In this document: positions 28,262-62,889 of the stretch, one piece after another
How the letters are laid out: each line of letters begins with the position of its first letter
Numbering within the stretch: the first letter of the stretch is position 1
Assembly: GCF_008035925.1 (NCBI RefSeq)
Contig: NZ_CP036264.1
Location: 8,222,343-8,286,342 of the forward strand
Direction of reading: 5' to 3'
DNA length: 64,000 bases
Source: Stieleria maiorica
Lineage (GTDB): Bacteria > Planctomycetota > Planctomycetia > Pirellulales > Pirellulaceae
Program-made: the position numbers and the translations under genes
The notes under the pieces: model-generated
What the model was told of the DNA's origin: nothing
What the model saw: only the letters and a program-made list of their open reading frames with translations
Databases searched by the model: none

Positions 28262-28287
28262 TCCCGATCGAGTCGCAACAGTGTCGA

Positions 28288-28402
28288 ACTGCTGTCCTCA
28301 GCTGTTCACGTGTGGCCGCGAAGCGGACACGTCCAAAACACCCGGTCAGCCGATGCGGCTGGCCGGGAGAGCCGTTGAGGACAATCGCTACATTTGGTGG
28401 GT
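28288..28402 (+). repeat. Diverged solo copy of the structured intergenic repeat
   Basis: The stretch starts AGTGTCGAACTGCTGTCC, matching AGTGTAGAACCGCTGTCC at the start of each repeat at 60901-61415. It ends TTGAGGACAATCGCTACAT, resembling TTGAGACAATGGTGCTACAC at the end of those repeats. In between it also has a strong GC hairpin. It begins 27 bp after the giant gene's stop codon on the same strand. Homology is judged by eye. Confidence 0.6.
28341..28367 (+). terminator. 12-bp stem hairpin after the giant gene
   Basis: CCCGGTCAGCCG (28341-28352) pairs with CGGCTGGCCGGG (28356-28367) around an ATG loop, with a single G-U pair. No T-tract follows, so intrinsic termination is uncertain. It is also the central hairpin of the solo repeat copy that surrounds it. 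Confidence 0.55.
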
Positions 28403-55244: not shown

Positions 55245-55593
55245 GCTTTGGTCCGGTCAAGATTCGGATACCTCTGAAAGAGGTGCGTGGATCAGTCCGC
55301 GCTAAAAAATGTGGGTTGAACCATCGCGAAGGCAACCGTCGGAGAAGAACTTCGGTCCGGATCCAGGCTTCACCCGGCAGTCCGTCATTGCGACCGGACC
55401 AATCGCACTAGCCGGAACTGGGCTCGTGGGCAAAACGATCCTGCGGTCGCGATCGGCGCGAGCGGCTTTCTTCGCAACGTAAGGTTGCCCAACCAGGGGT
55501 CGTTCGTCACGCAAAATCGCGGTTCGGGACACAAGAACGACTGTCAAAAACCGCCGATCGCACTGACATTTGACGTTCACGCTTCTCCGGTCC
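55245..55593. other. 349-bp divergent promoter region of the glycan cluster
   Basis: It lies between the FemAB-like gene (minus) and the flippase gene (plus), so it should hold both promoters. A short hairpin, ACCTCT-GAA-AGAGGT (55270-55284), lies 26 bp from the FemAB-like start. No RNA gene or protein-coding frame was convincing. Confidence 0.45.
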
Positions 55594-57237
55594 ATGAGCC
55601 AAGCCAGCCTTTCCCAGTCAGCGACGAAATCGGCCAAGACACTTACCGCCGATACGTTCTCGCAAAGTGTGTTGCTGATCGGCGGCTTGATGGTCGTGCA
55701 GCGAGGCATCGGATTCGTCCGCAGCTTTTACGTTTGCGGCACATTGCCGGCGGCCGAGGTCGGGCGCTGGGATCTGGCGTTCAGCTTCTTGATGCTGGTC
55801 GCCCCGCTGGCGGTCCTCGGGATCCCCGGCTCATTCGGTCGCTATGTCGCTCGATTTGAAAAGAGCGGTCAACAGTGGCGATTCCTTTGCCAGACCCTCG
55901 CGGCCTGCCTGGCGTTGACGCTGCCCGCCGCGGCGTTGATTTGGCTGTTTCGCGACGCGGTGGCGCGGTACTTTTTCGGCAGCGCCGGGGACGCATCCCT
56001 GGTCTCCATCCTGGCGATCGGGCTGCCGGTCATTGTGTGCTTCAATTTTTCAACCAGCTGGTTTTCCGGCAAACGGCTCAATCGATTCGTCTTCCGAATC
56101 CAGTTCGCCCAAACACTATTCTTCGCATTGCTGTGTGTCGTCCTGTTTCAATTGGCCGCGGTCAACGCCTCGTCGGTCGTCACGGCCTACCTGCTGTCCT
56201 GCCTGGTCGGCACAGCGTTGGGCGCCAGCTACTCGCTGCTGGACCGGCGCCAGACGCCACCCCAAGAAGTCACTCCCGACGCCGCGGGCACAACCGTCGG
56301 TGTTCAGGCTTTAGCCGCCCAGCCTCGCCGCGTCGCGGCGACCGGGGATCGCTTCAAGGCGAGACACCAACGGTTGCTGCATCGTTTTTTTCCGCCCGAG
56401 ACCGATCAGGCCGATTCGATTTGGCGAAAGATTCTTCCGTTTGCGGTCTGGGTCTGGGTCAGCAACGCATTGATCAACCTGTTTTCGGTTTGCGACCGAT
56501 TGCTTCTGGTCAATTTCTTTCCCGATCCGTCGGTCGACATTCAATATCTGGTGGGCCAATACCACACCGCATGCATTTTCCCCTTGTTGCTGATGACGAT
56601 CGGCGCCATGGCGGCATCGACCGGGCTGCCTTACTTGAGCAAGGACTGGGAATCGGGCGACCGTCAGGCGGTGGGCCGGCGGATGAACCTGATGCTCAAA
56701 GCGATCGGCTTGTTTTGTGTGACCGCGTCGGTCGCCATCCTGCTGCTCGCGCCGATTCTGTTCGGCGAATTCTGGAAAGACAAGTTTTCGCTCGGCGAGT
56801 CGCTGTTGCCGATGACGCTGTGTTACTGCTCGTTGGCGGCGATGACGATGGTCGCACAAAAATACTTTTGGTGCCTGGAGAAGACCTGGATCAGCAGCTG
56901 TTGCTTGCTGTTGGGGCTGGTTTGCAATTTCCTGGTCGGTCTGGCATTGATCGGCGACTTCGGGATCGACGGTGTTGTGGCCTCCACGTTGATCTCCCAT
57001 GCAATCGTCTTGGGCGGCGTGCTGCTGATCTGCAAACTTCACCGGCTGCGAATCGATTCCGGTGTGTTCGTCGTGTGCGCTGCTTTGTTCACGATTTGCC
57101 TGGGTAAATGGATCGCCTTACTGTCCCTGGTCTCGTTGCTGCTGGCCGCCTGGTACACCCCGCTATTGGTTAGCGATGCGCTTCGTCGCAGCGCACTTGT
57201 AAAACTCCGCTCCGCTTTTGGCATGAACCCTTCATGA
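55594..57237 (+). CDS. Wzx-like polysaccharide flippase (MOP superfamily)
   Basis: 547 aa from ATG 55594 (MSQASLSQSATKSAKTLTADTFSQSVLLIGGLMVVQRGIGFVR); the upstream TTG 55570 is less likely. About 12-14 hydrophobic segments. The first helix pair with 'GFVRSFYVCGTLPAAEVGRWDLAFSFL' is typical of Wzx/RfbX proteins. A hydrophilic loop of about 60 residues (about 225-285) separates the two halves. Known of the family: moves lipid-linked glycan units across the inner membrane. The stop codon overlaps the start of the ATP-grasp gene (ATGA), so the two are translationally coupled. Confidence 0.85.
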   Translation: MSQASLSQSATKSAKTLTADTFSQSVLLIGGLMVVQRGIGFVRSFYVCGTLPAAEVGRWDLAFSFLMLVAPLAVLGIPGSFGRYVARFEKSGQQWRFLCQTLAACLALTLPAAALIWLFRDAVARYFFGSAGDASLVSILAIGLPVIVCFNFSTSWFSGKRLNRFVFRIQFAQTLFFALLCVVLFQLAAVNASSVVTAYLLSCLVGTALGASYSLLDRRQTPPQEVTPDAAGTTVGVQALAAQPRRVAATGDRFKARHQRLLHRFFPPETDQADSIWRKILPFAVWVWVSNALINLFSVCDRLLLVNFFPDPSVDIQYLVGQYHTACIFPLLLMTIGAMAASTGLPYLSKDWESGDRQAVGRRMNLMLKAIGLFCVTASVAILLLAPILFGEFWKDKFSLGESLLPMTLCYCSLAAMTMVAQKYFWCLEKTWISSCCLLLGLVCNFLVGLALIGDFGIDGVVASTLISHAIVLGGVLLICKLHRLRIDSGVFVVCAALFTICLGKWIALLSLVSLLLAAWYTPLLVSDALRRSALVKLRSAFGMNPS

Positions 57238-59732: not shown

Positions 59733-60878
59733 ATGTCGGACCAAGGCATGCTGGCGCGAGAAGAAACCGCTCGCTATGCGCGGCATCTGACGTTACCCGA
59801 AGTCGGCACCGAGGGCCAAGTCAAACTGAAATCGGCCTCGGTCCTGGTCGTGGGAACCGGCGGGTTGGGATCGCCGGTCGCTCTGTACCTGGCCGCCGCC
59901 GGCGTCGGCCGCCTGGGGATCGTCGACTTTGATCGCGTCGAGTATTCGAACCTGCAGCGACAGATCATTCACGGGTCCGACGACGTCGGCCGCCCCAAAG
60001 TCGATTCGGCTGCCGAATCCATCGGCAACGTGAACCCGCTGATCCAAATCGACCGGCACGATCAAGCGCTCACCAGCGCCAACGCGATGCAGATCGCCGC
60101 CGACTATGACATCATCATTGACGGCACCGACAATTTTGCCACGCGTTACCTGGTCAACGACGTCTGCGTGCTGCTGGGCAAACCGAATTGCTACGGCAGC
60201 ATCTTTCGCTTCGAAGGCCAGGCCTCGGTGTTCGGACTTCCCGGCGGCCCCTGCTATCGATGTCTGTACCCGAAACCACCCGATCCCGGCATGATCCCCA
60301 ATTGTGCCGAGGGCGGCGTGCTGGGGATTCTGCCGGGCATCGTCGGCACGATCCAGGCGACCGAGGCGATCAAGTTGATCCTGGGGATCGGTGAGTCACT
60401 TTCCGGTCGGCTGTTGTTGCTCGACGCGTTGGAAATGAGATTTCGCGAACTGAAAGTCAGCCGAGACCCGAGTTGCCCGGTGTGTGGCGATCAGCCGACG
60501 ATCACCGCGCCGATCGATTACGACCAGTTTTGTGGGACGCCCAAACAGGACAGCACGCAAAGCCCCTGGGACATCGAACCGACGGAATTCAAACGACGAC
60601 TGGATGCCGGAGAGCCGATGACGGTTTTGGATGTTCGCAAGCAGCACGAGTATGACATCTGCAATCTTGGCGGGACGTTGATTCCGCTCGATGAATTGCC
60701 CACGCGTCTCGGTGAACTCGATCGATCACGGACGATCGTCGTCCACTGCAAACTCGGCATGCGCAGCGCCAAAGCCGTCCAGATCCTCCGCGACGCCGGT
60801 TTCCCCGACGTCAGCAACCTCAACGGAGGAATCATCCGCTGGTCGAAGCAAATCGATCCCACCATCCCGACCTATTAG
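59733..60878 (+). CDS. moeB: MoeB-like adenylyltransferase with rhodanese domain
   Basis: 381 aa. E1-like domain: 'VVGTGGLGSPVALYLAAAGVGRLGIVDFDRVEYSNLQRQ' (about 39-77), 'IIDGTDNFATRYLVND', zinc ligands in 'CYRC' and 'CPVC', and 'GILPGIVGTIQATEAIKLILG'. A C-terminal rhodanese domain (about 285-375) has 'VLDVRKQHEYDICNLGGTLIPLDEL' and the persulfide cysteine in 'VVHCKLGMRSA'. Known reaction: ATP-dependent adenylation of a MoaD/ThiS-like carrier, then sulfur delivery from the rhodanese persulfide. All expected residues are present. Only 4 bp separate it from the carrier gene. Confidence 0.92.
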   Translation: MSDQGMLAREETARYARHLTLPEVGTEGQVKLKSASVLVVGTGGLGSPVALYLAAAGVGRLGIVDFDRVEYSNLQRQIIHGSDDVGRPKVDSAAESIGNVNPLIQIDRHDQALTSANAMQIAADYDIIIDGTDNFATRYLVNDVCVLLGKPNCYGSIFRFEGQASVFGLPGGPCYRCLYPKPPDPGMIPNCAEGGVLGILPGIVGTIQATEAIKLILGIGESLSGRLLLLDALEMRFRELKVSRDPSCPVCGDQPTITAPIDYDQFCGTPKQDSTQSPWDIEPTEFKRRLDAGEPMTVLDVRKQHEYDICNLGGTLIPLDELPTRLGELDRSRTIVVHCKLGMRSAKAVQILRDAGFPDVSNLNGGIIRWSKQIDPTIPTY

Positions 60879-60892
60879 GAAGCCAGGCTTCC
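60878..60892. terminator. Perfect 15-nt palindrome at the moeB stop
   Basis: GGAAGCC-A-GGCTTCC forms a 7-bp stem whose first base is the last base of the moeB stop codon. It lies immediately before the first copy of the tandem repeat array. No T-tract; may be part of the array's boundary or a terminator. Confidence 0.45.
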
Positions 60893-60900
60893 AGCCGCCA

Positions 60901-61415
60901 AGTGTAGAGCCGTTGTCCCCAACTGTTCCCCCCGGAAAGCGCAGCGCCACACCCCGGCACAACCCCGCAGCCGCAAGCGACTGCGGGGGCACAATTGAGA
61001 CAATGGTGCTACACTGCCCTCCGGCCGCCAAGTGTAGAACCGCTGTCCCCAGCTGTTCCCTCCTGAAAGCGCAGCGCCACACCCCGCCACACCCCGCCAC
61101 ACCCCGGCAGCCGCAAGCGACTGCGGGGGCACAATTGAGACAATGGTGCTACACTGCCCTCCGGCCGCTGAGTGTAGAACCGCTGTCCCCAGCTGTTCCC
61201 CACTGCAAGCGCAGCGCCACACCCCGGCACAACCCCGCAGCCGCAAGCGACTGCGGGGGCACAATTGAGACAATGGTGCTACACTGCCCTCCAGCCGCCA
61301 AGTGTAGAACCGTTGTCCCCAACTGTTCCCTCCTGAAAGCGCAGCGCCACACCCCGCCACACCCTGGCAGCCGCAAGCGACTGCAACAGCACAATTGAGA
61401 CAATGGTGCTACACT
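60901..61415. repeat. Four tandem copies of a 115-125 bp structured element
   Basis: Units run AGTGTAG to CTACACT at 60901-61015, 61031-61155, 61171-61285 and 61301-61415, each joined by a 15-bp spacer (such as GCCCTCCGGCCGCCA). The ends are inverted repeats of each other. Each unit has GCGC-A-GCGC and, in copies 1 and 3, the perfect hairpin CCCCGCAG / CTGCGGGG with a 10-nt loop; copy 2 has a one-base bulge and copy 4 has lost the right arm. Copy 2 is 10 bp longer through a CACCCCGCCA duplication. The array fills the whole space between two convergent genes. Six-frame translation gives only low-complexity products. Confidence 0.9.
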
Positions 61416-62047
61416 TCCCTCAACACTCCCTCGTGAAGTTCGAACCGTTGATCCGCCAAGACTTCGGCTTCTTCGTTGCTGTGGGTGACGTGCAGCGTGG
61501 TCACTCCGGTCGTCTCCTTGACCCGTTTGAGCAGGGCGTGCATTTCCGCGCGGGTCGATTCGTCGAGGGCACTCAGGGGTTCATCGAGCAACAACACTGC
61601 GGGTCGAAATGAGATCGCCCGCCCGAGCGCGACACGTTGCGATTCGCCACCACTGAGCGCGTCGACCTTTCGCCCCAACAACGCTTCGATCCCGAGCACT
61701 TCGGCAAGTTCAGCGATCCGATTATCGATCTCTATCTGAGGCCGCTTTCGCAGCCGCAGCGCGAACGCCAAATGCTGTGCGACCGTCAGCGTGGGAAACA
61801 GCGCCAGGTCTTGGGGGACATATCCGATCTGACGATCTCCCGGCAACCAGGTCGTCACGTCGACGCCATCGATCGAAATCCGCCCCGAAGACACCTTGCG
61901 CAAGCCGCAGATCGATTCCAGGATCGTCGTCTTGCCGCGTCCGGTCCGGCCCATCAGCACGGCGTAGTGACCGCATGGGACGTGCATGGAGATGCCCGAG
62001 AGCGAAAAATCGCCGGCATGAATGGCAACGTTGTCCAGCTGGATCAC
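61409..62047 (-). CDS. modC: Molybdate/tungstate ABC transporter ATPase (ModC-like, no TOBE domain)
   Basis: 212 aa. GTG 62047 overlaps the modB stop (GTGA) and starts 'VIQLDNVAIHAGDFSLSGISMHVP', a normal ABC entry; longer frames upstream are out-of-frame readings of modB. Walker A 'GRTGRGKTT', Q-loop 'YVPQDLALFP', signature 'LSGGESQRVALGRAI', Walker B 'VLLLDEPLSALD' and H-loop 'HVTHS' are all present. It lacks the C-terminal Mop/TOBE domains of E. coli ModC and is closer in length to TupC/WtpC. The last codons and the stop (GTG TAG) lie inside the repeat array. Confidence 0.87.
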   Translation of the reverse strand: MIQLDNVAIHAGDFSLSGISMHVPCGHYAVLMGRTGRGKTTILESICGLRKVSSGRISIDGVDVTTWLPGDRQIGYVPQDLALFPTLTVAQHLAFALRLRKRPQIEIDNRIAELAEVLGIEALLGRKVDALSGGESQRVALGRAISFRPAVLLLDEPLSALDESTRAEMHALLKRVKETTGVTTLHVTHSNEEAEVLADQRFELHEGVLREV

Positions 62048-62889
62048 GCGTTTAATCCCGTCCCGAGCACGCGGAGAATCAACAACACGACCACGGCCAT
62101 CGCGACCATCAACAACGACACGGCGACCGCGGCGTTCAACTGACCGATACTCAATTCCAAGAACACGGTCGTCGAAAGCACCTCCGTCCGCATCCGCGTT
62201 GCCCCGGCGAACACGAGGATCGGTCCGAACTCGCCGAGCGCCCGCGCCCACGCGATCGTCGTCGCGGCGATCATCCCTCGCCACGCTTGGGGCAGCGCGA
62301 TCTGCATGAACGCCTGGCCCCGCGTGCAACCGAGCGTCCGCGCCACGTCTTCGGCGCGTGGATCAATTTGGTCGAACGTCACACGCATCGTTCGCACCGC
62401 AAACGCGCACGCCACTGAAAACTGGGCCAGCACCACCGCGGGCCACTGGTACGTGACCGGGAATCCGACGCTGTCGCGCAACCACGCCTCCAATTCCCAA
62501 CCAAAAATCGGCAGGTGAAACAGGATCAACAGGCTCAGCCCCAACACCAACGGCGGCAACACGATCGGAATATCGACCAGGGTGTCGACCAACCAGCGTC
62601 CCGGAAATCGATAGCGTGACAACAAGTACCCCAGCGGCGTCGCGACCCACAACGACAAGACGGCCGCGGCGGAGCAACTCAGGATCGTCAACCGAAACGC
62701 CGCTTGAATCTCCGGTTTGCGAAGTGCATCGATGAAGTCACTCGGTGAGGTGAACACGACGTCCGCGACCAACAACAGCACGATCAAGACGATGAAGCAG
62801 GCGGAGATCCCGCCCATCACCAGGAAAAATGGCGTGTCGCTGCGGCGCCGAAACGTCCGTGAAGAAGTGGAGTCCACCGGCTCACTCAT
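62044..62889 (-). CDS. modB: Molybdate/tungstate ABC transporter permease (ModB-like)
   Basis: 281 aa from ATG 62889 (MSEPVDSTSSRTFRRRSDTPFFLVMGG). Six hydrophobic segments. Permease motifs 'ATPLGYLLSRYRFPGRWLVDTLVDIPIVLPPLVLGLSLL' and the EAA-type loop 'EDVARTLGCTRGQAFMQIALPQAWRGMIAATTIAWARALGEFGPILVFAG' are those of ModB/WtpB/CysT-like proteins. It overlaps the end of the binding-protein gene by 8 bp and the start of the ATPase gene by 4 bp, so the three are one operon. Confidence 0.9.
   Translation of the reverse strand: MSEPVDSTSSRTFRRRSDTPFFLVMGGISACFIVLIVLLLVADVVFTSPSDFIDALRKPEIQAAFRLTILSCSAAAVLSLWVATPLGYLLSRYRFPGRWLVDTLVDIPIVLPPLVLGLSLLILFHLPIFGWELEAWLRDSVGFPVTYQWPAVVLAQFSVACAFAVRTMRVTFDQIDPRAEDVARTLGCTRGQAFMQIALPQAWRGMIAATTIAWARALGEFGPILVFAGATRMRTEVLSTTVFLELSIGQLNAAVAVSLLMVAMAVVVLLILRVLGTGLNA

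Follow-up and report, generated by a model that had tools for sequence, protein, structure and literature searches.

A RAYT-linked REPIN cluster fills the gap between convergent moeB-like and modC-like genes in Stieleria maiorica

The 64,000-nucleotide stretch of the Stieleria maiorica genome that we analysed (the window) contains a moeB-like gene with ThiF and rhodanese parts (59733–60878, plus strand) and, convergent with it, a modC-like gene for an ABC ATPase (61409–62329, minus strand) that adjoins permease and binding protein genes. Lying between the two is an array spanning 60901–61415, which both sequence inspection and a half-site model resolved into four units of 115, 125, 115 and 115 bp and three spacers of 15 bp. 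A preliminary description of this DNA had given the array as four units with AGTGTAG/CTACACT ends and 15-bp spacers filling the gap between convergent genes, and the sequence and the model confirmed the units, the spacers, the convergence of the genes and the span. The inverted ends, however, proved longer than had been stated, being half-sites of ~28 nt that each form a hairpin, and the block does not stop at the gap; it overlaps modC by 7 bp, because modC takes its stop codon (TAG, 61409–61411, minus strand) from the last REP, the right REP of unit 4, as part of that REP's GTAG.

Each unit is a pair of REPs arranged head-to-head around an internal spacer. The four units are on the plus strand, with their right REPs on the minus strand: unit 1 (60901–61015) has its left REP at 60901–60934 and its right REP at 60983–61015; unit 2 (61031–61155), whose interior is 10 bp longer than that of the other units, has them at 61031–61064 and 61123–61155; unit 3 (61171–61285) at 61171–61204 and 61253–61285; and unit 4 (61301–61415) at 61301–61334 and 61383–61415. 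The junction spacers relate differently to the flank left of unit 1, which is repeated in the 3'-most 7 nt of spacer 1 (61016–61030) and the 3'-most 11 nt of spacer 3 (61286–61300), while the end of spacer 2 (61156–61170) has no exact run in common with it. A half-site reads AGTGTAG, with the final G starting the hairpin GAACCGTTG-TCCC-CAACTGTTC, in which TCCC is the loop and the stem carries one C:T mismatch. All eight half-sites of the array were matched by the half-site model with E-values of 6.3e-10 or less in the 64-kb window, and a weight matrix found 0 half-sites in 142 kb of random Markov-1 sequence as against 186 in 41 real loci of equal total length (loci picked for holding half-site matches), so we do not regard the array half-sites as chance matches. 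The window has one more half-site of this family, a weaker one (34.8 bits) that stands alone at 28280–28313 on the plus strand, 18 bp past the end of a called ORF.

REPINs are short DNA elements with hairpin ends that occur in many bacteria and are believed to depend for their spread on a dedicated transposase, the REP-associated tyrosine transposase (RAYT). The preliminary description had left room for a unit unique to this locus and devoid of covariation, which is not what we found: the family is genome-wide. A BLAST search with one unit as query gave 64 matches in the S. maiorica genome, and a covariance model found at least 151 half-sites, a lower bound for which 150 of 4414 first-look candidates were scored. 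The 150 listed half-sites fall into 42 clusters, ranging from singles to arrays, and the 41 fetched loci contain 184 half-sites by the covariance model and 186 by the weight matrix. Geometry is tightly kept across the family: 23 loci contain 73 head-to-head units of under 160 bp, of which 71 measure 107–116 bp and 58 combine half-sites that differ at alignment position 12. GTAG was found at the 5' foot of the hairpin, where G4, T5 and G7 are invariant in 45 distinct half-sites and A6 is replaced by C or G in a minority. With ORF neighbours called heuristically by a longest-ORF script, 37 of 44 clusters lie outside called ORFs and seven within one; 20 lie between convergent ORFs versus six between divergent ones (p 0.009), and 11 are codirectional. 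A REP TAG is the end of a called ORF at eight of the 44 clusters (at one, L177, on an internal REP), and two more called ORFs stop within arrays on codons other than the REP TAG. One locus of this genome (L164, 3589341–3589573) has a different arrangement, with five same-orientation half-sites at a period of 49–51 bp next to a head-to-head unit.

Supporting that the half-site hairpin is a conserved structure, the 45 distinct S. maiorica half-sites have standard pairs in 98.3% of their stem cells and include 31 double-change cells (altered on both sides), values not reached in any of 500 shuffles. This set (A1) came from 82 pattern matches in loci L001–L030, which were reduced to 46 by dropping matches that did not start with GT (one such was kept) and rows with identical letters, and then aligned as 45 distinct trimmed rows; its pair counts lean towards the hairpin because the search patterns resemble it. 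Half-sites of relatives (S. mannarensis JC639 and other genomes), collected with a sequence-only model, gave 96 distinct rows that together contain 78 double-change cells, more than in any of 500 shuffles; in shuffle tests of this kind related sequences are able to beat the shuffles without structure. Of 60 distinct JC639 half-sites, 55 have C:T at the mismatch position, whereas the other genomes in that alignment have A:T there 23 times and G:C three times versus C:T eight times.

To compare larger structures we aligned one unit per locus, 23 from S. maiorica and nine from JC639 (alignment A5, with eight units reversed by eye to place the CAGCCG hairpin on the right). Scored as four separate hairpins, the 32 units contain 41 double-change cells, and none of 500 shuffles was as high. 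Within these units, pairing between the two half-sites had no covariation support, with shuffled columns as high in 498 of 500, and a single long hairpin per unit is not supported on this measure. A whole-unit hairpin is nonetheless the minimum-energy fold in five of five units with RNA parameters and in four of five with DNA parameters. Covariation supports separate REP hairpins over one long hairpin, and it bears directly on the structure that the transposase would read, pointing to the single REP hairpin and not the long duplex. The hairpins of the internal spacer are more weakly supported than those of the REPs: H1 and H2 are 75.8% and 88.7% paired with 18 double-change cells (0 of 500 shuffles), the count of pairs with a double change was equalled by 54 of 500 shuffles, folding of the spacer interior at 23 loci gave mixed z-scores (mean -1.22), and RNAalifold predicted two REP hairpins and no spacer hairpin. 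We can imagine, though we think it rather unlikely, that the unit comprises four hairpins (the left and right REPs with two spacer hairpins between them), that selection acts on each of these separately, that the total length is held near 107–116 bp, and that the spacer hairpins are read by the RAYT or by a second partner. If so, the REPINs of this lineage would be paired single-strand landing pads and not one long cruciform.

When the S. maiorica genome was searched with NCBI's model for RAYTs, 13 matches had E-values of 1 or less. One of these, at ~6.067 Mb (locus L038), encodes 232 residues from its ATG and matches NF047646 with an E-value of 1.7e-15; its score of 57.2 bits is below the curated cut-off of 80 bits, and the alignment covers residue 133 onward. 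The sole PDB match of the protein was to 4ER8, the TnpA-REP of E. coli (E-value 1.7e-6), and its HUH and Tyr motifs, HVH and YxxxNP, are invariant across eight aligned proteins that include it (alignment A4, in which the entries from G042 and L127 are identical and apparently one assembly). Three head-to-head units precede this gene and eight come after it, all of the window's family, and, like modC, the gene ends on the TAG of a REP, here the first one downstream of it. Among 17 scanned transposase loci this was the one locus with the window's half-sites. The earlier observation that the array has no transposase thus holds for the neighbourhood of the array but not for the genome, where the L038 RAYT is flanked by the same family, and we infer that this RAYT moves the window's REPINs.

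Other candidate movers were rejected. The window's half-sites are absent from the 3.3-kb loci of the IS200-type transposases L031 and L032, and the array repeats of the RAYT-like genes L035, L036, L037 and L039 differ from those of the window. Tandem repeats were present at five of six RAYT-model loci inspected (L035 to L039). The genes L035, L036, L037 and L039 (at ~1.964, 1.539, 8.852 and 9.850 Mb) have tandem palindromic repeats of their own, with periods of ~125–128, 78–80, 96–100 and 107 bp, respectively; together with L038 there therefore seem to be at least five RAYT–repeat pairs in one genome. A copy of the L036-type repeat (77–84% identity) also occurs in the window at 56299–56372, within a 555-residue ORF (55570–57237), and is possibly an intragenic repeat of another RAYT lineage. 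Five further matches to the RAYT model (L040–L044) are weak and equal in score (30.9 bits each), with open frames of 396–399 residues and, at L040, no tandem array; they possibly represent a separate Y1-like gene family.

The RAYT of S. mannarensis JC639 (L126) is 78% identical to that of L038 and has half-sites on both sides, and the JC639 genome contains at least 147 half-sites. Three genomes of the same genus (G036, G086 and G111) yielded neither a half-site nor a RAYT match above 195 bits. Across 118 other sampled genomes of the family, half-sites were found in five of five with a RAYT match of at least 230 bits, a threshold set after the matches were seen, versus 13 of the other 113 (Fisher 4.9e-5). 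When any RAYT match was counted (59 of 118 genomes), half-sites occurred in 13 of 59 genomes with a match and in 5 of 59 without, which is not significant (p 0.07), while at least three half-sites occurred in 9 of 59 and 1 of 59, respectively (p 0.017). Low and zero counts in this family-wide scan are lower bounds, because its filters were stricter and at most 59 candidates were scored per genome; G105, for example, had 6 half-sites in the stricter scan and 38 at a looser E-value, for which 150 candidates per genome were scored. Four genomes (G072, G103, G115 and G117) had one half-site match each and no RAYT match. One more genome (G059, locus L113), rated 99% complete, had ten half-site matches and no RAYT match, for which a lost RAYT, a contig gap or another mover are candidate readings.

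The same gene pair could be followed in relatives. In JC639 one contig ends past moeB with two units and another begins before modC with three, and these would be opposite sides of a single gap. As in S. maiorica, the 3' end of JC639 modC and the last half-site overlap. The modC-adjacent unit has 92–94% identity to the S. maiorica array units, and the other four JC639 units are 96–98% alike mutually versus 79–83% against those of S. maiorica, so S. maiorica and JC639 each seem to have multiplied a version of their own. In G111 moeB and modC are convergent with overlapping 3' ends, modC ends four residues later than its S. maiorica counterpart, and a search of the locus for half-sites found none; in G086 the two genes are ~4.4 kb apart. 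The array at moeB–modC would be an insertion, and not something that G111 has lost.

Junction spacers are near-constant inside an array and differ among arrays, and mean unit identity is 0.941 within a locus and 0.806 between loci. Among 22 clean array sides (those with spacers of at least 5 nt and no further half-sites nearby), five share at least 5 nt between spacer and flank versus 0.55 with shuffled flanks; the remaining 17 have spacers that do not repeat the flank. Summed over the sides, the spacer–flank match came to 92, whereas 5000 shuffles averaged 18.6 and did not exceed 88. We discarded a larger total of 246, against a shuffled mean of 34, as inflated, since some of the flanks held further half-sites. 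One JC639 junction spacer repeats 10 nt of its own flank, in parallel to the 11 nt in spacer 3 of the window. This repetition of flank in the spacers of the window and four other arrays points to tandem duplication, and the arrays probably arose by tandem duplication of the element plus flank, at least in the window.

Taken together, we are highly confident in reading the block as four tandemly clustered REPINs (BIMEs, or head-to-head REP dimers) from a RAYT-linked family, with L038 as the candidate mover. A MITE/REP-like element, one of the options raised in the preliminary description, is borne out by the genome-wide family, the covarying hairpins and a RAYT flanked by the same repeats. In mechanism, the RAYT (a Y1/HUH transposase at ~6.067 Mb) would recognise the GTAG-tagged REP hairpin in single-stranded form and would move or copy REPINs to new sites, frequently near gene 3' ends. 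At moeB–modC we infer arrival, then duplication, then divergence: a REPIN would have landed where moeB meets modC, where it now provides the modC stop codon, and would then have been tandemly duplicated with some of its flank, the copies diverging or being homogenised separately in each species.

We consider it improbable that the array is instead a structured RNA array or a bidirectional terminator or insulator, selected to keep convergent moeB and modC apart. Such a role would suit the multiple hairpins per unit, the presence in two species and the excess of clusters between convergent over divergent ORFs (20 versus 6), but we found no terminator-like site (a GC-rich stem followed by a T run; shuffles average 0.9) and no promoter-like site in 60700–61600, on which we rejected a terminator or promoter block, and a small RNA family was likewise rejected, as Rfam searches of 60500–61800 gave solely sub-threshold microRNA matches (three with E-values of 1 or less, the best at 21.6 bits where the gathering score is 83). 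Support is thus lacking for both the small RNA array and the bidirectional termination or insulation block suggested in the preliminary description. In addition, the family is present at dozens of further places, and its 3'-end bias is common to the GTAG REPs of other bacteria in the main text of PMC3733652. Any effect of the array on expression of moeB or modC would be incidental. A smaller chance still attaches to a MITE derived from an ordinary insertion sequence of the DDE type, with AGTGTAG...CTACACT as its terminal inverted repeats by coincidence; this would fit the inverted ends and the interspersed copies, mainly outside called ORFs, but every end forms a covarying hairpin of its own, no covariation is seen in the duplex that the two ends would make, and it is a Y1 RAYT that the repeat family flanks. 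As for plain local duplication of an unstructured spacer without any mobile element, its probability is practically nil: the higher identity within than between loci (0.941 versus 0.806) and the 11 nt of flank repeated in spacer 3 speak for it, but as a whole explanation it is already refuted by the at least 151 half-sites genome-wide, the covariation and the RAYT flanked by half-sites.

As a REPIN cluster of a RAYT-linked family the block is ordinary in kind. Our analysis sets out a REPIN/RAYT system in Stieleria, whose arrays are long and regular, and related systems elsewhere in the Pirellulaceae. These offer natural contrasts, within one genus with and without a close RAYT and at one gene pair with and without an array. 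A search of the REPIN/RAYT and planctomycete repeat literature, in which subscription journals were thinly covered, found no earlier description of this family. Inverted REP doublets, both dispersed and clustered and accompanied by a RAYT, were reportedly described by Bertels and Rainey in 2011 in Pseudomonas fluorescens SBW25. The Stieleria elements share the doublets and the RAYT with these REPINs but differ in having a whole-unit hairpin without covariation support.

Closer likenesses are to the GTAG REPs described in the main text of PMC3733652 (Di Nocera et al. 2013), which likewise have a 5'-foot GTAG, a short stem-loop and head-to-head heterodimers, occur in tandem groups with flanking DNA and near gene 3' ends, supply TAG as a stop codon, are linked to RAYTs and, in some families, have structured spacers. 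That text also reports large REP clusters in which tandem repetition takes in flanking DNA; it names the PVC superphylum and does not mention Rhodopirellula, Blastopirellula or Pirellula. Relative to the REPs it describes, the stem, the 107–116 bp unit and the spacer are peculiar to the Stieleria family. The E. coli REPtron (y and z REPs, BIMEs and TnpA-REP; 4ER8; PMC8266576) is similar in its GTAG, its internally mismatched stem, its tandem heterodimers and its HUH/Tyr protein. Against it, the aligned part of the Stieleria RAYT begins only at residue 133, the Stieleria stem has one C:T mismatch in place of the AA-GC bulge, and the mismatch position is paired in many relatives. In E. coli the activity of TnpA-REP is severely affected when the REP mismatches are corrected (PMC8266576).
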